In this document: positions 42,726 through 63,363 of the stretch, one piece after another
Position numbering within the stretch: the stretch's first letter is position 1
Layout: each line of letters starts with the position of its first letter
From: Synechococcus sp. WH 8101
GTDB taxonomy: Bacteria > Cyanobacteriota > Cyanobacteriia > PCC-6307 > Cyanobiaceae
DNA length: 64,000 nt
Direction: 5' to 3'
Assembly: GCF_004209775.1 (NCBI RefSeq)
Contig: NZ_CP035914.1
Span: 1,860,001 to 1,924,000, forward strand
Made by a program: the position numbers and the translations under genes
The notes under the pieces: model-generated
The model's database searches: none
What the model was told of the DNA's origin: nothing
Seen by the model: only the letters and a program-made list of their open reading frames with translations

Positions 42726-42992
42726 TCAAGGTGCCTTCTGGAATCCAGGGCCAGGCTTGACGGGGATTCCGCCGTTGCAGAAGTTGGAAGCAAACACCTC
42801 CTGGTCCTGCACGGTCCAGTCGGGCTTGTTGGCCTGATACCAACGGATGCTGTCGAGATAACAGGTGTTCCAGCGAGCCGACTGTTCCGCAATCGGCCGC
42901 AGAGACACGGCGATCGACACCGCACTGGCCGTGGCGATGATCCCCAGCACCGGCATCAGATGGGCATTGATCATGTCGCGTGCTTTTGACAT
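42726..42992 (-). CDS. Small membrane-anchored hypothetical protein
   Basis: 88 residues from ATG 42992. An N-terminal membrane helix ([20 protein letters not shown]) anchors a soluble part with two Cys ([14 protein letters not shown] and [13 protein letters not shown]). The frame is open further upstream to 43064, but the helix starts naturally at this ATG. It is divergent from selO. No family recognised. Confidence 0.6.
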
Positions 42993-43057
42993 CGCCAAGA
43001 GGAAACAACTGGTCTCAGTCTCACTCCATAGCATCGACCAACACGGAAGCCGGGCCC

Positions 43058-44758
43058 ATGCCAACGAGAAACGAGAGCAGCACGTTGGTGATCACCGACT
43101 TCAGCCAATTCGCTGAGCGAGTGGATTACTCGCTGCTGGAGGCCCTACGTCCTGATCCTGAGGCCACCAACGATGGCAACGATCACCGGCCTCGCCAGGT
43201 GTGCTCGGGCCATTACGTGCCGGTGACGCCCACCCCCTTGCCTGAGCCCGAGTATGTGGCCCACAGCCCAACGCTCTTCGCCGAGCTGGGGCTCAGCGAC
43301 GCCCTGGCCCACGACGCTCGGTTCCGCCGACTGTTTTCCGGGGATGCCTCGGTGGCCACCAGTCCGATGCGCCCCTGGGGTTGGGCCACGGGCTATGCCC
43401 TCTCGATCTACGGCACCGAATACATCCAGCAGTGTCCTTTCGGCACCGGCAACGGCTACGGCGATGGCAGGGCCCTGTCGATCGTGGAGGGTGTCTACGC
43501 AGGCCGGCGCTGGGAGATGCAGCTCAAGGGTGGCGGCCCCACCCCCTACTGCCGCGGCGCTGACGGGCGTGCAGTGCTGCGCTCCAGTGTGCGTGAGTTC
43601 CTGGCCCAGGAGTTCATGCACGCCCTCGGTGTGCCCAGCTCCCGCTCGCTCAGCCTCTATGTGTCGCGCGCCGAAACCGTGCGCCGGCCCTGGTACAGCC
43701 CCCAGTCACGCTCCTTCGAGCCGGATGTGATGGTCGACAACCCCGCAGCGATCAGCACCCGGGTGGCACCGTCTTTCCTGCGCGTGGGGCAGCTCGAGCT
43801 GTTCGCCCGCCGCGCCCGCAGCCAAGCCCACCCCGAGGCGATGGCCGAGCTGCGGTTGATTGTGGAACACCTAATCGAACGCAACTACAGGCCCGAAATC
43901 GATCCAGCGCTGCCGTTCTCTGAGCAGCTCCTGGAGCTGGCCCGACACTTCCGCGCAAGGCTCACGCGATTGGTCGCCGACTGGATGCGCGTCGGCTACT
44001 GCCAGGGGAACTTCAACAGCGACAACTGCGCCGCTGGGGGCTACACCCTCGACTACGGCCCCTTCGGCTTCTGCGAACTGTTCGATCCGCGCTTCCAACC
44101 CTGGACCGGAGGGGGTGAGCACTTCTCCTTCTTCAACCAGCCAGCGGCGGCGGAAGTGAATTACGGGATGTTCTGGCGATCGCTGCGGCCGCTGCTCGAA
44201 GGCAACCATGGAGCCCTGGCCCAACTTGATGCGATCCACGAAGGCTTCGCCGCCGTGATGCAGCAGGAACTCGAGGCGATGTGGGCCCGCAAGCTCGGTC
44301 TCGCCATCTACGACGAAGAGCTGGTGAGCACACTGCTGCAGCTGCTGATGGCCTCTCGAGCCGACTACACCCGCAGCTTCCGGCTGCTGTCGGCCATTCC
44401 TGAGCAGGCCTCCGATCTGCACCCCAGCTTCTATGTGCAGAGCTCCAGTGAGCTCGATCAGCAGTGGGAGAGCTGGCTGCAGCAATGGCGCACACAACTG
44501 CATGCCAACGGCACCCTGGAGGCAGCATCGGCAGCGATGCGTCGCGTCAACCCCGCCGTCACCTGGCGCGAGTGGCTGATCGCCCCCGCCTACCAGCAAG
44601 CGGAACAGGGAGACCACAGCCTGATCCAGGAGCTGCAGGAGGTGTTCAGCACTCCCTACGACGATCTCTCAGAAGACCGTGCTACCCGTTACGACCGCCT
44701 CAGGCCCCGCGACTTGTTCAATACCGGTGGCCTGTCCCATTACAGCTGTTCGTCGTAG
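43058..44758 (+). CDS. selO: Protein adenylyltransferase SelO (YdiU family)
   Basis: 566 residues. SelO is a pseudokinase that transfers AMP to protein Ser/Thr/Tyr, often in redox responses. Visible features: [20 protein letters not shown] with the active-site Lys and loop, [30 protein letters not shown] and the metal motif TLDYGPFGF. It ends H-Y-S-C-S-S, where the Cys stands at the position held by selenocysteine in animal SelO. ATG 43058 is chosen from the family N-terminus; the frame is open from 42980. Confidence 0.95.
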
Positions 44759-44825
44759 TCGTCTCTTCCAACGTCATCCCCCACCCAGCGACGAGCGCCT
44801 AGGTCAGCGGCAGTATCCCCAGCTG

Positions 44826-44881
44826 GCCAGAAACCTGTCACCACGATCGACTATTCCGCTGATGGGCCGCAGTACAGGCTG
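44826..44881 (-). pseudogene. Probable remnant of a BBE-type flavin-oxidase gene
   Basis: This stretch matches part of the oxidase gene at 51117-51175, with roughly 70 percent identity by eye over about 57 bases and shared blocks such as atcgac, tccgc and gtacaggctg. It sits downstream of porin A exactly as the intact oxidase sits downstream of porin B. No coding function remains. Support comes from position as much as identity, so the match should be confirmed by alignment. Confidence 0.55.
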
Positions 44882-44918
44882 AGTTCAATCAGCCAGCAAC
44901 CAACAACTTTTAGATGAT

Positions 44919-46334
44919 CTAAAAAAGCATGGTGAGCTGCACCATTCCACTCAAAGAATTCGCTTGAGCATCACGTAGACTCACCAGCGGCAGATACGTG
45001 ATAGCAGGCTGAAGATAAAGAGCTGGAGCAAGAGAAATCTGCTTATAGACCTGAAGCATCAATTCATTGGAATTGAACGAATCGGCCAAGAAATCACGTG
45101 TATTAATACGAGCCCAGGAAAGCCCGAGACCAACACTGTCGTCAGGTCGACTCTTCAGGACTCCCTGAGCCGTGAGACCCGCAGTAATCGAAAGACTCAT
45201 CTGATTGGTCGTGGAGGGAGACCATCCCGTACTAATAAAACCATTGATGCCACTGCTATCCACTTCAGGGCGGAAACTCGAAAGCCGCTGATTCAGGAGT
45301 CCATACAAGCCCCAGGCTCCCAGCTCACTAAAGCAAAGCCCCGGATCAAAACGATCGCAAACCACAGATTCTCCTCCCTGGGACCAGACACCGAACCCAA
45401 AAGAGCCAGGCTTGAGGGCATTGCCAGCAACCCAACCGCTGCCGACCTCTGCAATAGCGAAGAGGGGTCCTGTCAGCGAAGGCGTAACCAGACCAGTCTG
45501 AATAGAGGCATCACGAAGACCAGCACGACCATCAAAAACTCCAGCACTGACATAGGCACGCGACAGAAAAAGTTCTGGCAACCATGTCGCAGTGACACCG
45601 AATGCAGAGTTGGTGTAGCCAGGCAAGCGCCCCAGAAGAGTGGGCATCGAGTAAACAGGGGTAAACGCCAAGCTGGTGAGGCTTGAAATCTCGTAACGGG
45701 GATCTCGCGTCACATCCGGACGGTTGATATTGGCGAATACGGTGCTGGCAGATTGCTTCCCTGCGACGAGTCGCAATCTCCTATCGAAAAGGTCCTTGCG
45801 CAGAGCAAATTCAAACAGCTCGGTGCGATCCAGAGGAGGAGCTGCCACAAGGCTGTTGCTGCCCTGGACACTTCCGCTCGGCAACCCTGCATCCGTCGTT
45901 GCATTCACCTGCAAGCCCTGCACCCAAATCCAGGTGTGATCCAGACCAATCGCCTTGCCTAGATCAAGACTCGCTTCCAGCAACAGCTCCTGAGCAGCCT
46001 CATTGGGATTGATCAGACCACCGGAAGGGCCTTCAGAAATCCCTCCAAACCACTGGTCGGTGCCGTTTCCCACCCAAACACCACTAATCCGAAGTGCTCC
46101 ATCAGCAGGTAGCCCTAGCAATCGCCCCAATTCTCCTGTTCCCGGAGCAGTCTGGGAAGCCGCAGGATTACTCGTGGGCGGTAGAACCTGAGCCATGACT
46201 GGCCGGGAAACGGCACCCAGAAGAAGCAAGAGATGCAATAACGAAACACGCTTCAACAGGTATCGGAGATTACGCAACAAACGGAGCCACCGTGAATCCC
46301 TCAAAGCATGACGACCCCAGCCAACCGATCCCAT
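44919..46334 (-). CDS. OprB-like outer-membrane porin, copy A
   Basis: About 471 residues from ATG 46334. A hydrophobic segment (VSLLHLLLLLGAVSRPVMAQ) is the signal peptide, followed by a Pro/Ala/Gly-rich linker and a beta-barrel domain with OprB-family features: GELGRLLGLPADGALRISGVW, ASLDLGKAIGL, KQSASTVFANINRP, GRLPGYTNSAFGV and a final aromatic residue (VQLTMLF). OprB porins admit sugars and other small solutes; the substrate here is inferred to be nucleobase-like from context only. The start is uncertain: a TTG at 46304 is shared with copy B. Paralogue of 52277. Confidence 0.82.
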   Translation of the reverse strand: MGSVGWGRHALRDSRWLRLLRNLRYLLKRVSLLHLLLLLGAVSRPVMAQVLPPTSNPAASQTAPGTGELGRLLGLPADGALRISGVWVGNGTDQWFGGISEGPSGGLINPNEAAQELLLEASLDLGKAIGLDHTWIWVQGLQVNATTDAGLPSGSVQGSNSLVAAPPLDRTELFEFALRKDLFDRRLRLVAGKQSASTVFANINRPDVTRDPRYEISSLTSLAFTPVYSMPTLLGRLPGYTNSAFGVTATWLPELFLSRAYVSAGVFDGRAGLRDASIQTGLVTPSLTGPLFAIAEVGSGWVAGNALKPGSFGFGVWSQGGESVVCDRFDPGLCFSELGAWGLYGLLNQRLSSFRPEVDSSGINGFISTGWSPSTTNQMSLSITAGLTAQGVLKSRPDDSVGLGLSWARINTRDFLADSFNSNELMLQVYKQISLAPALYLQPAITYLPLVSLRDAQANSLSGMVQLTMLF

Positions 46335-46551
46335 GAAGAAACCCTTGAAATATACACCAAAAGCATGATTGCACTGTTTTGCATTGCCGCAGTAGATATT
46401 CAGGGCTTCTAGTTCTTGGCTAAACAGAAACAAATTAGATCGGCCCTACGACTCACCTTGACTTGAGTGCAAATATTTGCGAACGAGACACCCAACGCAG
46501 GGTGACAAGCAGAAAAGTGATTACCAGACTTTATGGACGCAACTTTCTAAA

Positions 46552-47982
46552 ATGACTAGTCTTCTCGCCCGCAATGCCGAGGTTTTGGTCACAATGGATG
46601 GAGAGCGCAGAGAACTGCGAAATGCATCCCTTTATACCGAAGATGGCTGGATCAAGCAGATCGGTCCAGCCGAGGAACTGCCTCAGCATGCCGACACAAT
46701 AATTGATCTCACCGGCCAAATCGTTCTGCCAGGGTTGGTGAATTGTCACCATCACCTCAACCAGACCCTCACACGCAATATCCCAGCAGCCCAGAACAAC
46801 AACCTCTTCGCCTGGCTCAAGGCTCATTACAAGATCTGGGCAGGCACCACACCGGAAGCATCACGTCTCAGCGTGCTTGTGGGCTGCGCAGAGCTCGCCC
46901 TCTCCGGGTGTACAACTGTTTTTGATCATAGCTATGTCTTCAAGAATGGCAACAGCGCGGATGTGATCATCGAGGCTGCGCGTGAATTAGGCATCCGCTT
47001 CCACTGCAGCCGTGGTTCGATGTCCCTCGGGGAATCCAAGGGGGGGCTGCCACCCGATAGCTGCGTGGAGGAGGAGTCGGCAATCCTGGAGGATACGCAA
47101 CGCGTGATCAAGGCTTATCACAACAGCGAACCCGGTGCCATGACGCGGATCGTCGTCGCCCCCTGCTCACCCTTCTCCGTCACTCCTTCCCTGCTGAGAG
47201 ACTCAGCAGATCTGGCTCGCCAGTATGAGGGAGTAGGCCTCCATACCCACCTTTGCGAAACGTTCGACGAAGAGCGCTACACCCTCAACACCTACGCCCA
47301 GCGTCCCGTTGAATTCATGGAAAGCGTGGGTTGGCTGGGGAACGAAGTTTGGTTCGCTCATGCCATACATGTGGATGACCAGGAGATCGGCCAATTCGCC
47401 AGTTGCGGCTGCGGGGTCTCTCACTGTTCCTCCTCGAATATGCGCCTGGCGTCAGGAATTGCGCCCATCAAAAAATACATGGAAGCGGGTGTCAAAGTAG
47501 GGATTGGTGTGGATGGATCCGCTAGCAACGACAGCTCAAACATGATGCTGGAGGTACACACAGCCTTCCTCCTCGCGCGTCTGAAGATGGGGCTACAGCC
47601 ACCAGAAGGGCCCAGCCGCTTCATGAACTTGTCGCAGTCTCACCCAAGAAGGGCCAAGGAATGGATGACGGCTCGCGAAATACTCGAAATCGCCACTCTT
47701 GGGGGAGCCTCTGTAATCGGCAGAGACGACATTGGATCACTGGAAGTTGGCAAGTGCGCCGACTTCTTTACGATAGATCTACATACAGTGGACTATGCAG
47801 GTGCCCTTCAGGATCCAGTCGCTGCAACCGTATTCTGTGCACCACAGAAAGCTTACTTCACCGTTGTCAACGGCAAGGTGATTGTTGATCAAGGCCGACT
47901 GGCTACTGTCGATCTGCCGATGATCATCGAACAGCATAACGCTACTAGCGACAAGCTGATGGGAAATAGCGAGGTTCAATGA
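46552..47982 (+). CDS. 8-oxoguanine deaminase-like amidohydrolase
   Basis: 476 residues of the amidohydrolase family (TIM barrel with metal ion): metal-site opening PGLVNCHHHLNQTLTR, then LSGCTTVFDHSYVF, RGSMSLGESKGGLPPDSC, the substrate region VAPCSPFSVTPSL, HTHLCETFDEE, HCSSSNMRLASGIAP and the catalytic Asp in GVDGSASNDSS. This ordered set agrees with the 8-oxoguanine-deaminase subgroup, which overlaps with proteins annotated as hydroxydechloroatrazine hydrolases. It would convert 8-oxoguanine to urate. ATG 46552 is preferred over 46477. The MFS gene starts 1 base after its stop. Confidence 0.85.
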   Translation: MTSLLARNAEVLVTMDGERRELRNASLYTEDGWIKQIGPAEELPQHADTIIDLTGQIVLPGLVNCHHHLNQTLTRNIPAAQNNNLFAWLKAHYKIWAGTTPEASRLSVLVGCAELALSGCTTVFDHSYVFKNGNSADVIIEAARELGIRFHCSRGSMSLGESKGGLPPDSCVEEESAILEDTQRVIKAYHNSEPGAMTRIVVAPCSPFSVTPSLLRDSADLARQYEGVGLHTHLCETFDEERYTLNTYAQRPVEFMESVGWLGNEVWFAHAIHVDDQEIGQFASCGCGVSHCSSSNMRLASGIAPIKKYMEAGVKVGIGVDGSASNDSSNMMLEVHTAFLLARLKMGLQPPEGPSRFMNLSQSHPRRAKEWMTAREILEIATLGGASVIGRDDIGSLEVGKCADFFTIDLHTVDYAGALQDPVAATVFCAPQKAYFTVVNGKVIVDQGRLATVDLPMIIEQHNATSDKLMGNSEVQ

Positions 47983-47983
47983 G

Positions 47984-49213
47984 ATGAACGGATGGATTCG
48001 CTGGGGTATAACCCAGCTCTTCTTCGTCTTAAGCGTGATCTGCAATATCAGTTTCGCGATTTCATCACCCAACCTAATCAGTTCTCTAGGCCTAGAGGAG
48101 GCTCAGCTCGGCGAACTGGGTGGTATTTACTTTGCCTCCTTCTCGATAGCGCTGCTCATTATCGGAGGTCTTATGTCCACGATCGAGCCACGGCTTTTGC
48201 TGGGCGGTTCCGCGGTTGTGGCAGCGATCGGAGCCCTGATTCTGTCTGCTGCCAATGGATTCGAGGGAGCCCTGATCGCAAGGCTGCTGATGGGCGTCGG
48301 ACTGTCGACCGCTTTTGTTGGGGTGATCACCTACGTGAGCAAGGAATTCCCCCAGAACTTCGCCTTCATGGCCGCCCTGAGCAATGCCATCGCCAACCTC
48401 TGCTCGGCGCTGCTCGCCATCACTAATTCGGTGATTCCAATTCTTGCCGGCTTCCGAGCCCCCTTCCGGCTTCTGGCGCCGCTGATGCTGTTCACCGCTG
48501 GTCTGCTGTTTGTGGTTCTGAGAGAGCGCAAGAGCAGCAGCGAAAGTGCTTCCATTCCAGCCGAGGGAAGTCCTCAGGCCACGCTATCGGCAGCGGAGCT
48601 ACCCACTGCAATCTGCAAAATTCTCACAACTCCTCAGTTCTGGTATGTCGCTCTCTACTTCGGTGGACTTTTCGGATCGTTTCTGGCTTATGCCGATCTC
48701 TGGAACATCCCCTACCAGCTCAAGGTATTCGGGCACACCATCCAACATGCCTCGCTCCTGAATTCCGCCTTCCCCATCGGCATGTCTGTCGGCTCGCTGA
48801 TCGGTGGTGCTTGGGCGAACCGGGCAGGCTTTCTGATACCGATCCGAGTTTTTTCGATCGTTGCGCTGGTTACTGAAGCCCTGCTGTTTGGCAACGCTCT
48901 TCCTGAAGCAGGAGCTGGGTTTGCCTTCTTCCTGGTAGGCATTGGCTGCAGCGCCGCATCCCTGGCATTGGCCGCTCTTCCCGAGCACCTGGAGGCGATT
49001 CTTGTCCCCATTGCCACCACCTTCGTGATGACCTTCACGTATCTACTGAGTGCCCTCATTCAGGTCCTTGCCGGGCAGCCAGGTGGAAAGTCAGGAATCA
49101 CGACCTTCACGAGTTACCAGGGAAGCATCGCCACGATCGTGGTTCCGGTCGCCATCGCGGCGGCCTCCTCGTTCCTGATCCGGCGGCGAACCAGAGCAAC
49201 TGCCGCAATCTGA
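47984..49213 (+). CDS. Major-facilitator transporter
   Basis: 409 residues with 12 predicted helices and a central cytoplasmic loop (RERKSSSESASIPAEGSPQ). Family features include the helix 2-3 segment and RLLMGVGLSTAFVGVITYVSKEF. No drug-exporter or sugar-specific motif is clear. It starts 1 base after the deaminase stop, so it is very probably its partner, importing the purine substrate or exporting the product. Confidence 0.85.
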   Translation: MNGWIRWGITQLFFVLSVICNISFAISSPNLISSLGLEEAQLGELGGIYFASFSIALLIIGGLMSTIEPRLLLGGSAVVAAIGALILSAANGFEGALIARLLMGVGLSTAFVGVITYVSKEFPQNFAFMAALSNAIANLCSALLAITNSVIPILAGFRAPFRLLAPLMLFTAGLLFVVLRERKSSSESASIPAEGSPQATLSAAELPTAICKILTTPQFWYVALYFGGLFGSFLAYADLWNIPYQLKVFGHTIQHASLLNSAFPIGMSVGSLIGGAWANRAGFLIPIRVFSIVALVTEALLFGNALPEAGAGFAFFLVGIGCSAASLALAALPEHLEAILVPIATTFVMTFTYLLSALIQVLAGQPGGKSGITTFTSYQGSIATIVVPVAIAAASSFLIRRRTRATAAI

Positions 49214-49406
49214 ATCTATCCATGTTTTTCTTGGACAAGTCCAGCCAGGGACACCTTTCTTCAGCTATAAAGAACAAGCTGATTTACACTGAAAGAGACG
49301 TGAAACCACCTAGGCTTATCATAGGCAGACATTCAAAATGAGGCAAACCAATCCAATGAATACCTGCAGACTCCAACAAGAATCAAGACAACCCTACGGG
49401 TTCAAA

Positions 49407-50120
49407 ATGCTTCAAAAACTTTACGCAACAGGCCTCACACTGCTGATCCTTTTTTCAGCCTGCCTACCGGCTTCTGCTCTGGCATCGACAAATCTGGAGC
49501 AACAACTAAGCAACAAAAACGGAATCGCCCACTTGCTGCCGTCATTTCGTGATACCAAGGGGCGCTTTAAAGTTCCTGATCCCACTGAAAATGCTCAAGC
49601 TTTTCTCACAGCACAACAAACCCTCACCATCCTGATTGATCAAGCCGAAAGCCAGGCACTCAACCGCCTCAATCCAACTGAGTTGGAAAAGCGGCTCGCC
49701 AAGGCGCCCACACGCCTACCAGCGCGATGGAAACGCGCAGAAATTGCAGTGCGGACCGATGGTCGAACCCAGAGCTGCGCAGATGACGGACCAAATTGTG
49801 CTGCCTACGGTTCCGACTCGTTTTTAAACACTCTGGAACCAGTTGAGGGCCTTGGAGAAAGCTTCTACCGCAGCGTGAATGCGCGTGGGGAGGCACAGGC
49901 TCTTGTCTATGTGCAGCCAACAGCAGTACCCAGCGTCAGCAGACTCCTTCTTGCTGCGGCCAATTCTGCTGGGGTTTGGATTCCCGCTGCATACGCTTTA
50001 GGGCCAGCAGGAGGAGAGGCTTTCATGATTGTCAACAATTGCTTGGACCTTGCACAGGAAACCAATGGAGTACTCAAGCCTTCAGCGATGCTCGTTGCCG
50101 CTTTGCAATGGGTGGATTAA
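49407..50120 (+). CDS. Secreted 237-residue protein of unknown family, copy A
   Basis: Signal peptide MLQKLYATGLTLLILFSACLP, cleaved after ASALAS. The mature protein has a helical first half (TENAQAFLTAQQTLTILIDQ, NPTELEKRLAKAP) and a second half with RTDGRTQSCADDGPNCAAYGS (paired Cys), GESFYRSVNARGEAQALVYV and MIVNNCLDLAQE. No recognised domain. ATG 49356 or 49338 would add a further 17 to 23 residues. By eye it differs from copy B at about 16 positions, mostly in the first half. Confidence 0.75.
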   Translation: MLQKLYATGLTLLILFSACLPASALASTNLEQQLSNKNGIAHLLPSFRDTKGRFKVPDPTENAQAFLTAQQTLTILIDQAESQALNRLNPTELEKRLAKAPTRLPARWKRAEIAVRTDGRTQSCADDGPNCAAYGSDSFLNTLEPVEGLGESFYRSVNARGEAQALVYVQPTAVPSVSRLLLAAANSAGVWIPAAYALGPAGGEAFMIVNNCLDLAQETNGVLKPSAMLVAALQWVD

Positions 50121-50259
50121 AGGCGGGACAGGAAGAAACCATTGGAGCGCTAATACAACAAAAATAACAACAAAATCCAAACGCAGAATCACAGCACTCC
50201 CAATGCGAGCACCCAGAGAAAGCATTCGAATAGTTCGCATAAAAGCGACTGAACCAATG
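50121..50259 (-). pseudogene. Remnant of an ABM-domain membrane-protein gene
   Basis: These bases align with the end of the intact gene at 54447-54590: the blocks tggattaa, aataacaacaaaa, tccaa-cgcag, cacccag/cgcccag and agcattc-a are shared in order. Only the last 45 or so codons remain, including WFSRFYAN matching WLSRLYAN, and the frame is not maintained. It lies downstream of secreted protein A, in the same place as the intact gene after copy B. Confidence 0.7.
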
Positions 50260-50429
50260 CAAAACAATACCCTGCGCTGATCGCAGCATGATTTCCATAT
50301 CATCATGTCAACTTCATAACACTCTCTCACGGACCAACACAGTGTCAATTACGCCATGTCTTTGCGCTTGAAAAACCAACCAAGGTGATCGCGATGGCGA
50401 TGTTCTGATTCGCCATAGGGCAAGTCAGC

Positions 50430-50639
50430 TCAGCGGGCCTGGCCAAACGCCGCTATCTCTGCCGGTGTCGGATTCATCGCGATTGCCATCAACAGCAGGT
50501 CGGCAGCCAGCAGATGATCCCCCTCAGCAAGCAGTAAGCGTCTCAACAGAATCACATCGCCGTAGTCAGCAGCAGCGTTTCCACTGAGCAAACTCCGGGC
50601 CGTACCTCGGGCAACCACCAACTGAAGAGACATGCTCAT
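50430..50639 (-). CDS. Possible small hypothetical protein
   Basis: An open frame of 69 residues (MSMSLQLVVARGTARSLLSG, LLRRLLLAEGDHLLAADLLLM, AIAMNPTPAEIAAFGQ). The composition is plausible for a helical soluble protein, but it sits in the decayed part of copy A and has no counterpart in copy B. No family recognised. Confidence 0.35.
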   Translation of the reverse strand: MSMSLQLVVARGTARSLLSGNAAADYGDVILLRRLLLAEGDHLLAADLLLMAIAMNPTPAEIAAFGQAR

Positions 50640-50734
50640 GGCTTCAAGATGGCACCGCCAATGATTCCAGTGATGAGACAGCAGATTCTCAGCTGATTTG
50701 CCAGCCAGGCCCGGGCCGCTACGCCATCAGTGAT

Positions 50735-50839
50735 TGATAGGCCTCTGTCACCCGCCGGAAGGCCTCTGCCGGCGATCACTGCTTCGTTGGTCCGTGCAGC
50801 GTTGGTCCGTGCGGGTGCGCCGGCTGCTGTCAGCTCCGG
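50735..50839 (-). pseudogene. Internally deleted remnant of a J-domain gene
   Basis: Two blocks of the J-domain gene at 55865-56656 are joined here: tgataggcctctgtcacccg onward (55881-55917) and ctctgccggcgatcactgct onward (56049-56120). The join falls exactly on an 8-base repeat ctctgccg (50764-50771) that occurs in the intact gene at 55910 and 56049, removing 139 bases and shifting the frame. This is what is expected from slippage or recombination between short direct repeats. Confidence 0.85.
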
Positions 50840-50888
50840 TGCAGCTGGCAGAGTTCCTGATCCAGCAATGCCACCTAGAGAACAGCGA

Positions 50889-52220
50889 TTAAGAAGGGGG
50901 ATCGAGAGACGGCAGCAACCCTTCGGGATCCCACTGTTTCTTCATCTGCCGCAGCTGGGGCAGCTCAGAGCCGTAAGCAAGCTCCAACTCCCGCTGGTAG
51001 CGGACCGTGCTCGGATGCCGCTCCACCAGGTAGACGTGACAAGCCAACGACTCCAATGCATCGAAGACCTCATCGGCCCAACGACAGACGGCCTGCTGAT
51101 GCAGAGCATCTCCCGCCGACCAGAAGCCGGAGATCACAATCGACCACTCCGCATGACGGCCCCGGTACAGGCTGCTGGCCATCGGCTGATCGGCGACGGC
51201 GCCTCCGATGTGCTGGAGATCAATGCGGCAGAGACGATTCGGGGCCTTCCGCATCGCCTCCTCAAGGCGAGGCGCCAACGCATGACTCAGGCCTGAAGGC
51301 ACACTGACGGTGTAGATCCAGGAGCGCAGGCGGCGAAAGCGATCAGGCTCCACAGGTGGTTCAGGCGGCAGAACACCGTTGCGATCAGGGAGATTGAAAT
51401 CGGGCAGCCACTCCTGGCCCGCCACATGGTCATGCCAGCACTCCAGACCCTCGCGCAGAAAGGCCGGCAGCAATGCCTCATCGCCCTCCTGGAGCACCAC
51501 GTAACGCATCAGCTGTGCTTGCTCCTGGTCGGGAGGGACACCAAGCACGAACGAGCAGGCAATCTGCCGCGGCAAGCTCTCGGCACAGTTAAGGGCATCC
51601 ACAAGGAACGGGAGGGCATTGAGCTGTCGGATCCCATGCAGCGGGCGACGGGGATAGGTGCGCAAGGTCGTCTCCGTGATCACCGCCAGAAAAGGCGCCG
51701 CGCCGCGCAGCAGTCGCCAAACCTCCGATCCATCAGCATCTTCGGCTCGAATCTCGAATCGGTCCCCATTGGCACGCACTCCACGCATCGCCACCACGCA
51801 ATCGAGGGTGAGTCCGAAACTGCGGCTGAGGTGACCGATGCCACCCATGGTCAACAACCCGAAACCCGGCGTGGCGTGCGTCCCCACAGGCACCATCCGG
51901 TCGTGGGGCTCTAAGGCCCGCAGAACAGCCCCAACACCGCAGCCCCCCTGCACCGTCACCAAATCTCCACTGACCGTGACGCCCCTCAAATGAGCCGCCA
52001 GGTCAAGCATCAGGGCACCGTCACCACTGCAGAAGCGACTGTGGCCGCCACTGCGCACCCGCAGAGGTCGCTTCTGTGCGCAGGCTTGTCGAACGAACGC
52101 CGCAACCTCCTGCTCATCGCGAGGCTGGGCGATGGAGGCCGGATGGGCTGCAGCAGCATCGCCATTGAACACTGCGGCCAGCGCGGTCTCATAGGCCGTT
52201 TCGCCTTGGTGAAGCTCCAT
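50889..52220 (-). CDS. FAD-linked oxidase, berberine-bridge-enzyme type
   Basis: 443 residues. N-terminal FAD domain with the covalent-His motif RVRSGGHSRF, LMLDLAAHLRGV, TVQGGCGVG and TMGGIGHLSRSFGLTLDCVV; C-terminal substrate domain ending LRQMKKQWDPEGLLP, as in the BBE family. The second covalent attachment (a Cys in the GxC loop) is not seen; the segment reads VGTHATPGFG, so linkage is probably by His only. No signal peptide. Substrate unknown. It lies upstream of porin B on the minus strand, and a fragment of a second copy lies near 44830. Confidence 0.85.
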   Translation of the reverse strand: MELHQGETAYETALAAVFNGDAAAAHPASIAQPRDEQEVAAFVRQACAQKRPLRVRSGGHSRFCSGDGALMLDLAAHLRGVTVSGDLVTVQGGCGVGAVLRALEPHDRMVPVGTHATPGFGLLTMGGIGHLSRSFGLTLDCVVAMRGVRANGDRFEIRAEDADGSEVWRLLRGAAPFLAVITETTLRTYPRRPLHGIRQLNALPFLVDALNCAESLPRQIACSFVLGVPPDQEQAQLMRYVVLQEGDEALLPAFLREGLECWHDHVAGQEWLPDFNLPDRNGVLPPEPPVEPDRFRRLRSWIYTVSVPSGLSHALAPRLEEAMRKAPNRLCRIDLQHIGGAVADQPMASSLYRGRHAEWSIVISGFWSAGDALHQQAVCRWADEVFDALESLACHVYLVERHPSTVRYQRELELAYGSELPQLRQMKKQWDPEGLLPSLDPPS

Positions 52221-52276
52221 CGAGCGCTGCCGTCAGTACCGCCGACCTCTCGATAGCAAGACCACCACGATTGCCA

Positions 52277-53698
52277 TCAAAACAACATGGTGAGCTGCAG
52301 CAGTCCGCTCAAAGAGTCATTGCCTGCATCTTTGTTACCAACACGGGGCAGCAGCGTGAGGGTTGGCTGAAGGAAGAGGGCCTCGGCCAGAGCGATCTGG
52401 GCATATCCCTGCAGCATCAATTCATGAGAGTTAAAAGCCTCGGAGAGAAAGCCGCGGGTGTTGAGGCGAGCCCATGAAAGACCCACGCCAAGGCTGTCGT
52501 TCGGACGCGCCTCAAGAGGGCCCTGCAACGTGAATCCTCCGGTGATCGACGCATTCATCTGATTGGTGATGGATGGCGACCAACCAGCGCTGAAGAATGC
52601 ATTGATGCCGCTGCTGTCTTGGTCCGCTCGAAAACTGGAGAGACGCTGATCCAATAGCACATACAGTCCCCAGGCGCCCAAGTCGCTGATGCACTGCTGA
52701 GGGTCAAGAGGATTGCACAGCAACGACTCACCTCCCTGAGACCAGACCCCCACACCAAAGGAGCCGGGCTTACGGGCATCGCCAACGACCCAGCCGCTTC
52801 CCACCTCCATGATGTTGAACAGTGGACCGCTGAGCGACGGGGACGTCAACCCCGTCTGCACGGAGGCAGCACCAAGTCCTCCCCGTCCATCAAACACACC
52901 GGCACTCAAGTACGAGCGGTTGTCAAACCATCCCGGCTGAAGGGTGAACCTCAGGCCAAGCGCTGAATTGGTGTAGCCGGGCAGCCGACCCAGAAGCGTC
53001 GGCATGGAATACACCGGTGTGAAGGCCAGACTGGTGAGGCTGGAGACTTCGTAGCGGGGATCATCGGTGGCGTCGGGGCGATTCATATTGGCGAACACAG
53101 TGCTGGCCGACTGCTTGCCGGCAACAACACGCAGGCGCCCCTCAAAAAAGTCCTTGCGGATGGCGTACTCGAACAGCTCGGTGCGGTCCAGGGGTGGCGC
53201 AGCCACAAGGCTGTTGCTGCCCTGGACACTGCCACTGGCCCTTCCGGCGTTGGTCGTGGCATTCACCTGCAGTCCCTGAACCCAGATCCAGGTGTTCTCC
53301 AGACCAATTGCATTGCCCAGATCCAGGCTTGCCTCCACAAGCAGTTCCTGCGCTTCATCGGTGGACCTGGAGAGTCCTCCGGACCACTGCCCCGTGGCGT
53401 TCCCCACCCAAACACCACTAATCCGAAGCGCTCCATCAGCAGGTAGCCCCAGCAATCGCCCCAATTCACCCGTTCCCGGAGCAGCCTGAGAAGCTGCAGG
53501 ATTACTCGTTGGCGGATGAACCTGAGCCATAACTGGCCCAGGAACGGCACCCAGCACAAACAAGAGATTCAATAACGAAACGCGCTCAAACAGGTATCGG
53601 AGGTTGCGCAACAAACGGAGCCACCGTGAATCCTTCAAAGCATGATGGCATGCAAAACGAGGAAAACCAGTCCAATGAATACTTGCGGACTCCAACAA
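52277..53698 (-). CDS. OprB-like outer-membrane porin, copy B
   Basis: 473 residues from the first ATG (53698); a TTG at 53638 is the start shared with copy A. Signal segment VSLLNLLFVLGAVPGPVMAQ, the same linker and barrel motifs as copy A (GELGRLLGLPADGALRISGVW, KQSASTVFANMNRP, GRLPGYTNSALGL), and the same terminal VQ/LQLTMLF. Differences are concentrated in predicted loops, for example around residue 270 and just after the N-terminal linker. Its 5' end is divergent from and close to secreted protein B. Confidence 0.82.
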   Translation of the reverse strand: MLESASIHWTGFPRFACHHALKDSRWLRLLRNLRYLFERVSLLNLLFVLGAVPGPVMAQVHPPTSNPAASQAAPGTGELGRLLGLPADGALRISGVWVGNATGQWSGGLSRSTDEAQELLVEASLDLGNAIGLENTWIWVQGLQVNATTNAGRASGSVQGSNSLVAAPPLDRTELFEYAIRKDFFEGRLRVVAGKQSASTVFANMNRPDATDDPRYEVSSLTSLAFTPVYSMPTLLGRLPGYTNSALGLRFTLQPGWFDNRSYLSAGVFDGRGGLGAASVQTGLTSPSLSGPLFNIMEVGSGWVVGDARKPGSFGVGVWSQGGESLLCNPLDPQQCISDLGAWGLYVLLDQRLSSFRADQDSSGINAFFSAGWSPSITNQMNASITGGFTLQGPLEARPNDSLGVGLSWARLNTRGFLSEAFNSHELMLQGYAQIALAEALFLQPTLTLLPRVGNKDAGNDSLSGLLQLTMLF

Positions 53699-53725
53699 GA
53701 ATCAAGACAATCCTACGGGCTCAAA

Positions 53726-54439
53726 ATGCTCCAAAAACTTTACGCAATAGGCCTCACCTTTCTGATCCTTTTTTCAGCCTGCCTACCGGCCTCTGGTCTC
53801 GCATCGACAGGCCTGGAGCAACAACTATGCAACAAGAACGGAATCGCCAATTTGTTGCCGTCATTCCGTGATACCAATGGGCACTTCAAGGTTCCTGATC
53901 CCACTGAAAATGCTCAAGCTTTTCTCACAGCACAACAAATCCTCACCATCCTGATTGATCAAGCCGAAAGCCAGGCACTCAACCGCCTCAAGCCAACGGA
54001 GTTAAAAAAGCGGCTCGCCAAGGCGCCCACCCGCCTAGCAGCACGATGGAAACGCGCAGAAATTGCAGTGCGGACCGATGGGCGAACACAGAGCTGCGCA
54101 GATGACGGACCGAATTGTGCTGCCTACGGTTCCGACTCGTTTTTAAACACTCTGGAACCGGTTGAGGGCCTTGGAGAAAGCTTCTACCGCAGCGTGAATG
54201 CGCAAGGAGAGGCACAGGCTCTTGTCTATGTACAGCCAACAGCAGTTCCCAGCGTCAGCAGACTCCTTCTTGCTGCGGCCAATTCTGCTGGGGCTTGGAT
54301 TCCCGCTGCATACTCTTTAGGGCCAGCAGGAGGAGAGGCTTTCATGATTGTCAACAATTGCTTGGACCTTGCACAGGAAACCAATGGAGCGCTCAAGCCT
54401 TCAGCAATGCTCGTTGCCGCTTTACAATGGGTGGATTAA
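53726..54439 (+). CDS. Secreted 237-residue protein of unknown family, copy B
   Basis: Same architecture as copy A: signal peptide (LYAIGLTFLILFSACLP), helical first half, paired Cys SCADDGPNCAAYG and late NNCLDLAQE. The second half is nearly identical to copy A, while the first half carries most substitutions, including an extra Cys (EQQLCNKNG). It is divergent from porin B and converges with the ABM-domain gene 7 bases away. Confidence 0.75.
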   Translation: MLQKLYAIGLTFLILFSACLPASGLASTGLEQQLCNKNGIANLLPSFRDTNGHFKVPDPTENAQAFLTAQQILTILIDQAESQALNRLKPTELKKRLAKAPTRLAARWKRAEIAVRTDGRTQSCADDGPNCAAYGSDSFLNTLEPVEGLGESFYRSVNAQGEAQALVYVQPTAVPSVSRLLLAAANSAGAWIPAAYSLGPAGGEAFMIVNNCLDLAQETNGALKPSAMLVAALQWVD

Positions 54440-54446
54440 GAGTGGA

Positions 54447-55097
54447 TCAGAAAGAGAATACTGGAGAGCTAAAGATAACAAGAAATAACAACAAAAATCC
54501 AAGCGCAGAAGCACAGTACAACCAACTCGAGCGCCCAGAAGAAGCATTCAACCAGTTTGCGTATAGGCGACTGAGCCAAGGTACTAACAACCAGCCAGTG
54601 ACTGCGACTGTGATCGCATTACTGATCAACATATTAAGCGGTAATGGCATCCGACCCAGAGTAGTGCGACCCAACACCATCAAGATCATCACTGATGGAT
54701 AGAGCGCCAACCAGACCAGAAGATTGACTTTCCAGGCCGGTGGCTTTTGACCACTCCGAGAGGTAATCCACTGGTCGAAAGACTGAGGTTCGACAAGCGA
54801 GCGATAGCGATAGCCAATTGCCTCTTCAGCATGAACCAAAAGCCGCCTTCTGACACGACTATCAAGCCAGGCAAGGCAGTTTTCTAAACTCGTAAATCGA
54901 ATTCGAGCAACGCAGCGCGTCAAACCCTGCTGATCACTCGGCTCGTAGTCAAGCTCTTGACCAAGATAGCCTTCAAAGAGACTCGCTGCCCGATCAAGCT
55001 CTTCTTGAAGCTTGGCAAAAGCACTCACCTGCGAGGGAGGCAATTCATTGTGAAAAGTATAAACAAACTGCTCATCAGAGCCCGTCTGATTACCCAT
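54447..55097 (-). CDS. ABM-domain protein with membrane helices
   Basis: 216 residues. Residues 1-100 look like a ferredoxin-like antibiotic-biosynthesis-monooxygenase domain (YTFHNELPPSQVSAFAKLQEE, FTSLENCLAWLDSRVRRRLL). The C-terminal half has two or three hydrophobic helices (VNLLVWLALYPSVMILMVLG, NMLISNAITVAVTGWLLVPW, WLYCASALGFLLLFLVIF). Similar fusions occur in bacteria and are thought to handle small hydrophobic molecules. A decayed copy lies at 50121. Confidence 0.7.
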   Translation of the reverse strand: MGNQTGSDEQFVYTFHNELPPSQVSAFAKLQEELDRAASLFEGYLGQELDYEPSDQQGLTRCVARIRFTSLENCLAWLDSRVRRRLLVHAEEAIGYRYRSLVEPQSFDQWITSRSGQKPPAWKVNLLVWLALYPSVMILMVLGRTTLGRMPLPLNMLISNAITVAVTGWLLVPWLSRLYANWLNASSGRSSWLYCASALGFLLLFLVIFSSPVFSF

Positions 55098-55122
55098 CGA
55101 ACCAACCTATAAATTGAACGCA

Positions 55123-55602
55123 TCAATAGCGAGCACCATCAGGCAACAAGCGAAATTCCTTCCAAATAGCACAAGCCTCCTCCTGAAGGATTTGATTCAA
55201 GCGAATCTCTCGCTCGCCCCTTGCTTTTTGCATGTCAGCATTAATCGCCTCATCAGAAAACAGATCACTATAATCAGACCAAGATGCGGCATAAAAAACG
55301 GTTCTAATTCCAGCCCAATAAGCCGTGGCATAGCACATCGGGCAACACTCACAACTCGTGTACATCACACAACCAGAAAGATCCCAGGTTCCGAGAGCCT
55401 TGCAAGCAGCACGAATTGCATTCACCTCTGCATGAGCACTTGGATCAAGATCTTTCACCACACTATTCCCTGCCGCAGCGATCACCTCACCATCCTTGGC
55501 GATCACAGCACCAAAGGGACCCCCGGTCTTTTCAATAACTCCGGCATTGCGCATTAAGCGAATCGCTTGCCGCATCATTTTCAGATCCAACTCAGTAGCC
55601 AT
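55123..55602 (-). CDS. Guanine-deaminase-like nucleobase deaminase
   Basis: 159 residues of the CDA/guanine-deaminase fold. The first zinc motif is intact (AHAEVNAIRAACKALG, His with catalytic Glu); the second is TSCECCPMCYATAYWAG, with a Cys where the family usually has Pro (CEPCPMC), so all metal ligands remain. The C-terminus with YYS/DEAI and RLLPDGARY resembles the Bacillus-type domain-swapped guanine deaminase. It would convert guanine to xanthine. ATG 55602 is preferred over upstream ATGs. Only copy B of the island has this gene. Confidence 0.82.
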   Translation of the reverse strand: MATELDLKMMRQAIRLMRNAGVIEKTGGPFGAVIAKDGEVIAAAGNSVVKDLDPSAHAEVNAIRAACKALGTWDLSGCVMYTSCECCPMCYATAYWAGIRTVFYAASWSDYSDLFSDEAINADMQKARGEREIRLNQILQEEACAIWKEFRLLPDGARY

Positions 55603-55864
55603 CGCCAAGAATCGACTCATTGCATGATGACCATTCAGGCACTGAGTGGCAACCCCTCGACCCATTGCATCGCGACCAAAGAGCTCGATGTCATCGGGCC
55701 ATAAAAAAATTATCAGAACATGCCATCAAGTCATCAGTGAAGCATAAATTTATAAACGGCTTTAAACCTTTCTGCAACTCTGCAACCTCCTCGCGCCAGA
55801 GGACAGAGCCAGAAAGCCAGCAGCCCTCGTTCCATTGATTATCAGTGAATAGAGTTCGCCACCC

Positions 55865-56656
55865 TCAGGCCACCAGGCGCTGATAGGCCTCTGTCACCCG
55901 CCGGAAGGCCTCTGCCGAGCCACCCATATCCGGATGGTGCTGTTTCACCAGGCGCCGAAACGCCTTCTTGATCGCCTCCTGAGACGCACCGGCCTGGAGG
56001 CCCAGCACCGCCAGAGCATCCGAACTGGAGGTCCAGGCCTGGGCGTTGCTCTGCCGGCGATCACTGCTGCGTTGGTCCGTGCTGCGTTGATCCGTGCGGG
56101 TGCGCCGGCTGCTGTTCGGACGCAGCCGCTGCCGTAGCTCCGCCACCACCCGGGCCGGATCCTCATCCAGCCACTCGCTTGCCCGCACGCCATAGAGCGC
56201 GAAGGCGGCCAGCACGGCCATGCCCTTTTTGGTGGCCTTGCGCCCCACCGCCGACAGCAGATCGGTGCCCAGTCCGCTCACCAGCCGGTCAAGGCGCTGC
56301 TGGAGACTGAGCTGCGGGTGGAAGCTGCTGCGGTTGAGTCGATCCACCAGAGCCTCCAGGCCGCTCTGACGCAGGTCAGTCCAGCCCGCTTGCTGGGCCA
56401 TGGCCTCGCCCCAGCGACGCACCTGATCAGCACTCACCCGCGGCGGCGGACTGGCGGAAGGCTCCTGCCATCGCGGCGGCTGCACCCACTGCTGACGTCT
56501 CTGCCGCTCAAGCTCCCGCTGCAGCCGTCGCACCTCCCGGCGCAGGGCCTCATTCTCCTCGAGCAATGCCGTGAGATTGACGGTGACACGGGGATCAGCC
56601 CCCGGGTCCTGAGCGCACGATCGAGTGGTCGACCACTGGCGCGGATCAAATCCCAT
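55865..56656 (-). CDS. C-terminal J-domain protein
   Basis: 263 residues. An Arg/Gln/Leu-rich coiled coil lies near residues 30-60 (NEALRREVRRLQRELERQRR), a helical middle contains LRQSGLEALVDRLNRSS, a Ser/Arg/Gln-rich linker follows, and the C-terminus is a J domain (VLGLQAGASQEAIKKAFRRL, with the HPD motif in KQHHPDMGGS). J proteins stimulate Hsp70; the coiled coil may set the partner. A deleted fragment of a second copy is at 50735. It marks the right border of the duplicated unit. Confidence 0.85.
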   Translation of the reverse strand: MGFDPRQWSTTRSCAQDPGADPRVTVNLTALLEENEALRREVRRLQRELERQRRQQWVQPPRWQEPSASPPPRVSADQVRRWGEAMAQQAGWTDLRQSGLEALVDRLNRSSFHPQLSLQQRLDRLVSGLGTDLLSAVGRKATKKGMAVLAAFALYGVRASEWLDEDPARVVAELRQRLRPNSSRRTRTDQRSTDQRSSDRRQSNAQAWTSSSDALAVLGLQAGASQEAIKKAFRRLVKQHHPDMGGSAEAFRRVTEAYQRLVA

Positions 56657-56665
56657 GGAATGCGC

Positions 56666-57331
56666 TCACCAGGGCAGCAGCTCACCATTGGAATGCCAGA
56701 AGCTGCCGCTGGTTTCCAGGGTGAGTGCATCGATGCGCGCCAGCAACCCCTCGACCGCCTGCTCCGGAGCAATGCCGTTGGGGTTGAAATTGATCATGCG
56801 GGTGCGCACGAGCCCCGGATGCAGAATCGCCACAGCGATACCCCGGGGTTGGAGGTCGATCGCCAGCGACTTGCCGGCCATGGTCAAGGCCACCTTCGAC
56901 ATCCGGTAGCCATAGGAGCCCCCGGAGCTGTTATCGGCGATCGAACCCATGCGACTGGTCATCAACGCAAGCTTGGCCCCCCGCGGCATCTGATCCAGCA
57001 GCGCCCGCGCCAGGAGCAACGGCGCCAGGGCATTCAGCTCGAACTGACGGCGGATCCCCTCCGGATCGAGATCCTCCAGCCCCATCGACTGCAGGATGCC
57101 GGCATTGAGAATCACCACATCGAGACTCTGTCCCTGCAGGCGAGCCACCAGCTCGGCGGGCGCCGAAGCAGCAGCAAGATCCAGCCCCGCTTCAATTCGC
57201 ACCCCCAGGGCCTCCAGCTCCGGCGAGGGCTCGCGGCAGACCGCAATCACCTGGTCACCTCGTGCCTGCAACTGCCGGCAATACTCCAGGCCGATACCCC
57301 GGTTGGCGCCGGTGACCAGAACTGTTGCCAT
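56666..57331 (-). CDS. Short-chain dehydrogenase/reductase
   Basis: 221 residues. Rossmann motif VTGANRGIGLEYCRQL, NAG strand (VVILNAGILQ) and active site GSYGYRMSKVAL (YxxxK with upstream Ser). The short length and sequence resemble the C-factor/sniffer-type SDRs. Substrate unknown. It is 9 bases from the J-domain gene on the same strand. Confidence 0.9.
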   Translation of the reverse strand: MATVLVTGANRGIGLEYCRQLQARGDQVIAVCREPSPELEALGVRIEAGLDLAAASAPAELVARLQGQSLDVVILNAGILQSMGLEDLDPEGIRRQFELNALAPLLLARALLDQMPRGAKLALMTSRMGSIADNSSGGSYGYRMSKVALTMAGKSLAIDLQPRGIAVAILHPGLVRTRMINFNPNGIAPEQAVEGLLARIDALTLETSGSFWHSNGELLPW

Positions 57332-57377
57332 GACGCTTCCCGCCCGTTCCGTCCCATCCTGACGGCAGCGCAGCCCA

Positions 57378-57944
57378 TCAGCGCATCAGCGTCAGGTCGG
57401 GGTACTGACCGGTGAGCTTGCCGTTGCGGTCGTAGGTGTTCATCGCCATCCGGTTGCTGCCATCGAGGGGGATGGCCAACTGCACCACGGCATCACCGGT
57501 GTGGCAGGGCTTCGGGAACAGGGTGAGGCGCGCGACGCCGACCACCAGATCGCTGGGCTCGCTGGGGGGCACCAACTGGTCCGGGAAGGTGCCGTTGCGG
57601 CCCCAGGGCAGGATCTCGACGCTGTAGTCGCTATCGCAGATTCCGTTCAAAGGCGTGCCCCAGCGGAGGCGAGTGGGCTCGACTGTCAGAACATTCACAA
57701 CAGCACGACCGGCCGTGCTGTTGGCCTTCCAACGGCCCAGATACATGTTGTCGCCAGCCCATTCGTCGGGCTTGATCGGCTCCTTGACAGGCTGGTCGTT
57801 CGATTCAGCACTGAGCCGATGGGCGCGCATCGCCCCGCCGTAGATCGCCCCGATCACGTAGCCGCTCGCCTGGTAGCCCAGTGCACTCACCAAACCGGCA
57901 ATCAAAGCAGCACTGAACAGGGTCTTCAGGGTGGCGCGGCGCAT
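57378..57944 (-). CDS. Membrane-anchored hypothetical protein
   Basis: 188 residues from ATG 57944 with a leading hydrophobic helix (TLKTLFSAALIAGLVSALGY) and a glycine-containing second hydrophobic stretch (GYVIGAIYGGAM). The rest is a periplasmic-type soluble domain with NSTAGRAVVNVLTVEPTRLRW, two Cys (GICDSDYS, PKPCHTGD) and a beta-rich end (VVQLAIPLDGSNRMAMNTYD). No family recognised. Confidence 0.6.
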   Translation of the reverse strand: MRRATLKTLFSAALIAGLVSALGYQASGYVIGAIYGGAMRAHRLSAESNDQPVKEPIKPDEWAGDNMYLGRWKANSTAGRAVVNVLTVEPTRLRWGTPLNGICDSDYSVEILPWGRNGTFPDQLVPPSEPSDLVVGVARLTLFPKPCHTGDAVVQLAIPLDGSNRMAMNTYDRNGKLTGQYPDLTLMR

Positions 57945-58001
57945 GGTGATCAAGCAGACAGTCAATCTTCGGGCGCAGCGCGCGGCAGCGCCACCGCGAC
58001 G

Positions 58002-61255: not shown

Positions 61256-62290
61256 TCAGCAGATCCTTGGCAGCAGTTCCCCGCTCAAGGGCGTCAGGAA
61301 CCGTTCGGTGCCCAGGGGCGTCCGCAGGCGGACCCGGGGAGCGCTCCGCTCCGCCCACGCCTCCACCGCGCCCACAACGGCACCACCGGTGCCAGCCAGC
61401 ACGGCCAGAGCAGACTCCGCCTGATCCGGTGGCACCACCAGCACACAGCGTCCTTCGTTGGCCAGGTGGAGCGGATCGAAGCCGAGCAGGTCACAGCAAC
61501 GGCTCACGGCCGGAACCACCGGGATCCGCGCCTCCTCCAGCACCAGATCACAGCCACTGTCATCGGCAAGTTCCTGCAGGGCCGCCGCCAGGCCGCCACG
61601 GGTGAGGTCGCGCAGGCAATGGGGCTGCACTCCGGCCGCAAACAACGCGGCCACCAAGGGCCAGAGGGGGGCACAGTCGCTCAGCACCGGTGGCTGCAGG
61701 TCGAGACCATGGCGAGCCGCCAGGATCGCCACGCCATGGCGGCCCAGGTCACCGCTCAACAGCAGCACATCCCCCGGACGGATTGCCGCGGGGCTGATCG
61801 CGGCCGGGGCCTCCACCACACCGAGACCACTGGTGCTGATGAAGATCCCATCGGCCTTGCCCCGCTCCACCACCTTGGTGTCACCGGTGGCAATCTCCAT
61901 GCCCGCCTCGGCGGCGGAAGCAGCCATCGACGCCACCACCCGTCTCAGCAGCTCCAGAGGCAACCCCTCCTCGAGGATCAACGACACGCTCAGATACCGG
62001 GGTCGCGCACCCGCCATCGCCAGATCGTTGGCGGTGCCGGTCACCGCCAGGCTGCCGATGTCTCCGCCGGGAAACTCCAGGGGCTGCACCACATAGCCAT
62101 CGCAGCTGAAGGCCAAAGGAGCGGCAGCAGACGGCAGAACAGCCGCATCGTGGAGAACCACGGCAGCCTCATCGCCTCCTCCCGAACGATCGAGCGCCTG
62201 ACCTGGCAACAGCGGCCGTAACTCCTGCTGGATCAGGTCGCGCATCAGGGCGCCACCGCCGCCATGGGCCAAGCGGATGCAGTCCGTCAT
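61256..62290 (-). CDS. hypE: Hydrogenase maturation protein HypE
   Basis: 344 residues. HypE makes the cyanide ligands of the NiFe site by dehydrating a thiocarboxamide formed on its C-terminal Cys. Seen here: N-terminal RLAHGGGGALMRDLI, FSCDGYVVQP, VTGTANDLAMAGARP, ATGDTKVVERGKADG, PGDVLLLSGDLGRHGVAI, LRDLTRGGLAAAL and the essential terminal P-R-I-C. ATG 62290 overlaps the hypD stop, so the two are translationally coupled. Confidence 0.97.
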   Translation of the reverse strand: MTDCIRLAHGGGGALMRDLIQQELRPLLPGQALDRSGGGDEAAVVLHDAAVLPSAAAPLAFSCDGYVVQPLEFPGGDIGSLAVTGTANDLAMAGARPRYLSVSLILEEGLPLELLRRVVASMAASAAEAGMEIATGDTKVVERGKADGIFISTSGLGVVEAPAAISPAAIRPGDVLLLSGDLGRHGVAILAARHGLDLQPPVLSDCAPLWPLVAALFAAGVQPHCLRDLTRGGLAAALQELADDSGCDLVLEEARIPVVPAVSRCCDLLGFDPLHLANEGRCVLVVPPDQAESALAVLAGTGGAVVGAVEAWAERSAPRVRLRTPLGTERFLTPLSGELLPRIC

Positions 62291-63363
62291 CGCCGATAGC
62301 GGTGATAGGCCGCACAGGCTCCCTCGCTCGACACCATCGGCGCCCCCAGGGGCCGCTGCGGAGTGCACGCCCCACCAAAGGCCGGGCACTCCGGCGGCAG
62401 GGCCAGACCCCGCAAAATGCGGCCGCTGATGCAGAGCCTGGGGTCGGAGTCATCGCCAGCGGCGACGGCAGGCTCCAGGGCTGCGGCATCGAGATGCCGG
62501 TAAGCGGGTCGCAGGGCCAGCCCCCCCTGGGGCAGAACTCCCAGGCCACGCCAAGGACGATCCGCAGGTTCAAACACCGCATCGATCAACGCCTGCGCCG
62601 CCCGATTGCCCTCCGGCGTCACCACCCGGGCGTAGGCATTGCTGAGACGCGCTTCGCCCGCCTCCAGTTGTCGCACCGCCTCGAGCACGCCCGCCATCAA
62701 CTCCGCGGGATCGAAGCCGCTCACCACCACCGGCACCCGATGGCGCTCCACCAGCTGCTCCAGCTGCCGTGTGCCCATCACCGCCGCCACATGACCGGCG
62801 GCCAGAAAAGCCTGCACCTCGCTGGCCGGATCGGCAAGGATCGCTTCCATCGCCGGCACGACGCGCACGTGGGCGACCAGCAGCGACAGATTGGGGAGCG
62901 CCAGGGCCTTGGCCTGACGCGCCAACAGGGCCGTGGCGGGAGCGGTGGTCTCAAACCCCACCGCCAGAAACACCACGCGGCGATCGGGATGGCGCCGGGC
63001 CAGCGCGATCGCCTGAAGCGGCGAAGTGAGCAGCTGCACATCCCCTCCGGCCGCCCGCACCGCCAATAGATCCTGGCCGGGATCACTTCCCGGCACCCGC
63101 AGCATGTCGCCGTAGGAACAGAGCACCACATCGGGACGCCGCGCCAGCTTGAGGGCGAGATCAATGCAGGCGGCCGGTGTGACACACACCGGGCAACCGG
63201 GACCATGGATCAGACGCACCACTGGTGGCAGCAGCTGATCAAGGCCCCAGCGGAGGATGGCGTGGGTCTGGCCGCCGCAGACCTCCATCAGGGTCCAGGG
63301 GCGACGGGTCAGGGCAGCGAGGGTGTCAGCCAGCTGCGCCGTTTGGGCATGGGCGTGGATCAA
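62287..63363 (-). CDS. hypD: Hydrogenase maturation protein HypD
   Basis: 358 residues. HypD carries an iron-sulfur cluster and assembles the Fe(CN)2CO unit with HypC. Signatures: TLMEVCGGQTHAILRWG, IHGPGCPVCVTP, GDMLRVPGS, AVGFETTAPATALL, and the C-terminal Cys set (DPRLCISGRILRG, PPECPAFGGACTP). Coupled to hypE by a 4-base overlap and preceded by a dihydroorotate-dehydrogenase-like gene. Confidence 0.97.
   Translation of the reverse strand: MIHAHAQTAQLADTLAALTRRPWTLMEVCGGQTHAILRWGLDQLLPPVVRLIHGPGCPVCVTPAACIDLALKLARRPDVVLCSYGDMLRVPGSDPGQDLLAVRAAGGDVQLLTSPLQAIALARRHPDRRVVFLAVGFETTAPATALLARQAKALALPNLSLLVAHVRVVPAMEAILADPASEVQAFLAAGHVAAVMGTRQLEQLVERHRVPVVVSGFDPAELMAGVLEAVRQLEAGEARLSNAYARVVTPEGNRAAQALIDAVFEPADRPWRGLGVLPQGGLALRPAYRHLDAAALEPAVAAGDDSDPRLCISGRILRGLALPPECPAFGGACTPQRPLGAPMVSSEGACAAYHRYRR

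Follow-up and report, generated by a model that had tools for sequence, protein, structure and literature searches.

Periplasmic solute-binding proteins are exported, apparently soluble and encoded near transport genes. The small protein analyzed here, encoded twice in Synechococcus sp. WH 8101, is like them in these respects, and also in the holding of a small solute that we propose for it. However, it matches none of their families in Pfam, and in place of an ABC transporter it is accompanied by an OprB porin and an MFS permease. In the OprB carbohydrate-selective porin systems (PF04966), of which the porin found here is a clear member, we know of no such exported partner, and the context of this porin is purine breakdown, not sugar. 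The purine-use gene sets of SAR11 and SAR116 share with this locus TadA-kind purine deaminases, purine permeases including MFS members, and the release of purine nitrogen, whereas the main text describing them lacks the word porin, and the part of it seen reports no such Synechococcus cluster (PMC11698098). Our literature search, which reached few subscription papers, found no published description of the exported family or of its genomic island. The main texts of PMC10119275, PMC7522525 and PMC2441476 mention neither guanine nor porin, and the text seen of PMC4949707 touches only in general terms on porins and on exported proteins to which no function is assigned.

The window, that is, the whole stretch of 64,000 nucleotides that was analyzed (NZ_CP035914.1, positions 1,860,001 to 1,924,000), contains an 11.1-kb island at 44755-55857, delimited by flank comparison. 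Sister genome G181 (proS 97% identical) lacks it as one block; the window flanks 44754 and 55858 are only 27 bp apart there, so the two strains differ by the whole of 44755-55857 as a unit. GC content is mostly 49-57% in the island, with one stretch of 62%, against 60-69% outside. The gene order begins with OprB-family porin 1 (44919-46433, minus strand), an 8-oxoguanine deaminase-like amidohydrolase (46477-47982, plus strand; NF006055, 610.8 bits against a cut-off of 532; PDB 7ww2, E 7.1e-144), an MFS permease (47984-49213, plus strand; PF07690, E 7.1e-21), exported protein 1 and a FAD-binding oxidoreductase (50889-52220, minus strand; PF01565), hereafter the flavin enzyme, whose sequence relatives include EncM and 6-hydroxy-D-nicotine oxidase. 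It continues with porin 2 (52277-53698, minus strand; true start probably within the open reading frame), exported protein 2, a small membrane protein without a Pfam match (54447-55097, minus strand) and a cytidine-deaminase-fold protein (55123-55665, minus strand; PF00383). By sequence, the last finds its best PDB match in guanine deaminase 1wkq (E 1.7e-34), with other deaminases ranking lower, and the alignment shows the HAE...CxxC zinc motif; kinship and motif mark it as a guanine deaminase, with predicted activity. The small membrane protein gene adjoins the guanine deaminase gene in 11 of 13 mapped guanine-deaminase loci; this was not seen in G277 and G004. Guanine and 8-oxoguanine deaminases in the same island are the main functional clue, which the earlier note on this DNA had missed. 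With about even confidence, we consider that the duplicate small exported proteins work with a dedicated OprB porin lacking an SLH domain in a mobile purine-scavenging island.

The two exported proteins (237 aa each, 93% identical) are encoded by plus-strand open reading frames at 49407-50120 (copy 1, P0002) and 53726-54439 (copy 2, P0001). Both starts were retained, as relatives begin at the equivalent position and not at upstream in-frame ATGs. The signal peptide claimed in the earlier note was borne out: in all eight sequences of the family a hydrophobic stretch peaks within residues 1-30 and is followed by small-residue cleavage-type motifs, the best 12-residue Kyte-Doolittle mean being 2.4-3.2 in this stretch and no higher than 2.0 in the mature protein. 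Hydropathy and AXA-type motifs place the signal peptide of copy 2 at about residues 1-26 (53726-53803, plus strand; cleavage site approximate), and the mature protein of about 210 residues is predicted to be helical towards its N terminus and is better conserved towards its C terminus. A lipoprotein reading was rejected in a lipobox test, as Cys19 occurs only in the two window copies and the other six sequences have no Cys there. Both motifs named in the note are present. In the CX6C motif CADDGPNC (residues 124-131; 54095-54118, plus strand) both cysteines are invariant in the eight sequences, relatives retaining only these and the AD, and NNCLD (residues 210-214; 54353-54367, plus strand) is invariant throughout. 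Since the invariant cysteines are odd in number (Cys 124, 131 and 212), the description "paired Cys" is strictly true of the CX6C pair and does not extend to the whole protein. Comparison of the two window copies gave dN 0.033 and dS 0.167, and that of the G231 and G271 proteins dN 0.049 and dS 0.889, with lower dN in the C-terminal half in both pairs. These ratios are well below 1, which indicates a real gene family under protein-level constraint.

The note had suggested a profile search and structure prediction as checks. Nothing in Pfam, NCBIfam or PADLOC matched the exported protein above a curated cut-off; stray matches below it were to DUF5732 (E 0.049) and GlfT1 (E 0.12), each in one of eight members. 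In PHROGs, judged by E-value, one window copy matched the endolysin PHROG 700 at E 0.0018, a match absent for the G231 relative. The view that the protein has no recognized domain therefore holds for the profile libraries searched, and no PDB sequence matched at E 0.1. AlphaFold models of two exported proteins were poor (mean pLDDT 43 and 52). Searches with these low-confidence models returned nothing at E 0.001 or better in Foldseek (best E 0.51) and no Z of 5 or more in VIA (best Z 4.7), where lipocalin rows at Z 3.0-3.6 were mixed with unrelated rows of similar score; the structural part of the check, which took in the two-lobed alpha/beta fold of solute-binding proteins and the calycin-type barrel of lipocalins, gave no convincing match. 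The note's other suggestion, an extracellular binding protein, likewise drew neither a profile match nor a reliable match of fold. Both models nevertheless place helices N-terminally and mainly strands later, in agreement with the helical half described in the note. Neither outcome that the note had given as refuting its view was seen: a strong match to a known enzyme was not found, and the export signal is present. It is quite unlikely that the protein is an exported enzyme, without an assigned fold, that processes a purine compound in the extracytoplasmic space before uptake, for example by freeing bases from nucleosides. The purine-island context, the strongly conserved C-terminal part, the invariant polar residues and the third Cys would suit such an enzyme, but no profile or convincing fold match connects the protein to any hydrolase and no catalytic motif is recognizable.

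Only seven genomes yielded full-length relatives, and all belong to a single cyanobacterial family (the marine Synechococcus group). Among 300 sampled genomes of this family, nine gave matches at E 0.01 or better, six of them full-length (G000, the genome of the window, G222, G231, G246, G271 and G064) and three short and weak. Of the 31 genomes of the genus covered, six hold the protein, which adds G557 to the holders. Across 291 genomes drawn evenly from the class, the only real copy was that of G000, with two weak partial matches elsewhere. A scan of genome contigs for close relatives with a single exported-protein sequence gave no match, and a profile scan gave one locus, L016, from Synechococcus sp. 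AG-679-A04, which is apparently the same assembly as G557, as their match coordinates agree. No relative was detected in the viral contigs, plasmids and phages searched. Weak matches at E 0.002-0.006 in G298, G269, G281, G311 and G365 were considered as further holders and treated as chance, all being short; four are interrupted by stops and that in G311 is not. The holders do not cluster on a single-gene proS tree of 29 genomes: seven changes are needed on the best tree, and well-supported branches force at least five changes in presence among the labelled rows.

The closest companion of the exported protein is the porin. The island porins (74% identical as proteins) score 95.7 and 71.1 bits, above the PF04966 cut-off of 22.9 (E 5.2e-27 for porin 2 and 1.5e-19 for porin 1). 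Across 51 genomes, the porin clade, defined at E 1e-20, occurs in nine: the seven holders of the exported protein have it intact, and in G253 and G289 it survives in broken form. Presence or absence of intact porin and exported protein agrees in all 51 genomes, 44 of which hold neither intact, and in independent contrasts on the proS tree the two change together in six of six (sign test p=0.031). In G222 and G246 they co-occur unlinked, about 1.4 and 0.7 Mb apart, respectively, and G193, a close relative of both, has neither. At the level of genes, the coupling of the exported protein to the porin is well supported, and the note's suggestion of an envelope partner gains from the 51-genome agreement, the contrasts and the unlinked co-occurrence. 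Its claim of a fixed place beside an OprB porin stands only in part. The exported gene and the porin lie head-to-head in five of the eight gene copies (copy 2 of the window, G231, G271, G064 and G557), whereas the 8-oxoguanine deaminase and permease genes separate copy 1 from porin 1, and G222 and G246 carry the porin elsewhere in the genome. Because the porin adjoins in five of seven genomes, linkage, which is broken only in the G222/G246 lineage, may account for some of the joint gain and loss.

Two genomes retain damaged loci. Compared with G271, G289 has lost about 1.9 kb, comprising the entire exported-protein gene, the 5′ part of the porin and the beginning of the gene for a second deaminase. 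The deletion (around 9891 in locus L055) joins the 3′ half of the porin to the second deaminase gene, and an 18-bp overlap of the alignments there may reflect a short repeat. G253 lacks the exported gene, the flavin enzyme clade and the permease, and a deletion of about 0.3 kb has disrupted its porin. In L016, residues 217-236 of what was a second exported-protein gene persist at 1560-1619, on the far side of the porin; this layout resembles that of the window, so a duplication around this porin may have occurred in another lineage.

An exported protein that is a porin-specific helper, acting in assembly, gating or tethering with no relation to purines and perhaps replacing a missing SLH domain, is unlikely, although the porin is its tightest partner. 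Pfam reports no SLH domain in the island porins and finds one in four of the seven other OprB proteins of the genome, which speaks for such a role. The other three, however, also have none by Pfam and show no sign of needing a helper, and in G246 and G222 the exported gene adjoins a deaminase gene, not the porin.

Purine genes bear on our preferred reading, joint work of the exported protein and the porin in purine scavenging. The exported protein tracks the guanine-breaking enzyme set more loosely than it tracks the porin. Guanine deaminase occurs in 15 of 51 genomes, all seven holders and eight without the exported protein; these eight count against the purine-scavenging reading. In contrasts with the exported protein, guanine deaminase changed in the same direction in four to five cases (opposite 0, no difference 1-2), the flavin enzyme and the permease in four (opposite 0, no difference 2), and the second deaminase and the 8-oxoguanine deaminase in one (no difference 5); none of the contrasts for guanine deaminase, flavin enzyme or permease reached 0.05. 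The flavin enzyme clade (at least 57% identity) was found in seven of 51 genomes, six holders and G289; the holder without it is G557, an assembly of 73% completeness, and the remaining matches are distant paralogues of about 28-41%. The permease is present in five genomes, all among the seven holders. At 6959-8140 of L011 in G231, stops divide the MFS permease gene into pieces of 277 and 113 aa, so that it is probably a pseudogene, the exported protein and porin there being intact. The 8-oxoguanine deaminase is found at full kinship in G000 only, with two distant matches (31-33%). The incomplete spread of these two genes among the holders also counts against the purine-scavenging reading. A second cytidine-deaminase-fold protein, which at E 0.01 matches by sequence nothing in the PDB except guanine deaminases (E 3e-4), is encoded directly downstream of the exported gene in three of the seven holders (G271, G246 and G222), and a fourth copy of its gene is the one cut by the deletion in G289.

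The patchy distribution, low GC and clean insertion or loss would also fit an island with another purpose, such as a surface change against phage or grazers, with the exported protein as its accessory and the deaminases as chance neighbors. We regard this as highly improbable, since PADLOC gave no match and the exported protein repeatedly occurs together with the guanine deaminase and flavin enzyme clades without linkage (G064, G222 and G246). In G064, the exported protein and porin occupy one locus and the guanine deaminase and flavin enzyme another; its relative G009 lacks all four.

Enzyme families and co-occurrence thus point to a purine role of the exported protein alongside the porin. 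In the scavenging scheme that we favor, the porin would pass purine bases (guanine, perhaps 8-oxoguanine) across the outer membrane. Located at the porin mouth or in the periplasm, and with its conserved C-terminal part presumably braced by a CX6C disulfide, the exported protein would bind the base or dock on the porin and so ease passage to the MFS permease, which would carry the base in; the cytosolic deaminases would then release ammonium. Purine binding by the exported protein is our proposal. A bolder version, which we think distinctly improbable, is a two-part outer-membrane uptake of poorly soluble purines in picocyanobacteria, in which the dedicated porin works with an exported protein, new in fold, that would bind purines, collecting guanine from sources such as crystals, detritus or exudates and passing it on to the porin or permease. 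A supply of purines is plausible, because Prochlorococcus exudes them as a traded ocean resource and SAR11 groups carry deaminases and permeases for their use, according to the part seen of PMC11698098. If the island does give some Synechococcus strains purine uptake, a phototroph would join the ocean purine trade, a cyanobacterial OprB porin clade would gain a substrate class, and the exported family would gain a testable job. The near-identical genomes G000, with the island, and G181, without it, offer a ready comparison.

The duplication extends beyond the exported-protein genes. Blocks at 49330-50257 and 53649-54579, the latter including the 3′ end of the membrane-protein gene at 54447, are 90.8% identical over 931 columns, whereas DNA identity between the porin genes is just 72%. 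Compared with their G222 counterparts, porin 2 shows 94% and the flavin enzyme 96% identity. A mixture of tandem duplication and later replacement by recombination would explain these identities. A 37-bp exact direct repeat at 50735-50771 and 55881-55917 puts a fragment from the 3′ terminus of the 55865 gene inside the island and is likely the footprint of a tandem duplication.

Searches for other elements gave minor observations. No tRNA was found at 42000-58000, and sigma-70 and terminator scans stayed at chance level. Using the NtcA-type consensus GTAN8TAC, we found no site upstream of the exported-protein genes, a point against the purine-scavenging reading, and two elsewhere in the island (46260 and 47233); in L012, such a site precedes the membrane-protein gene. 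Outside the island, two minus-strand open reading frames at 61256-63363 resemble the hydrogenase maturation proteins HypE and HypD.
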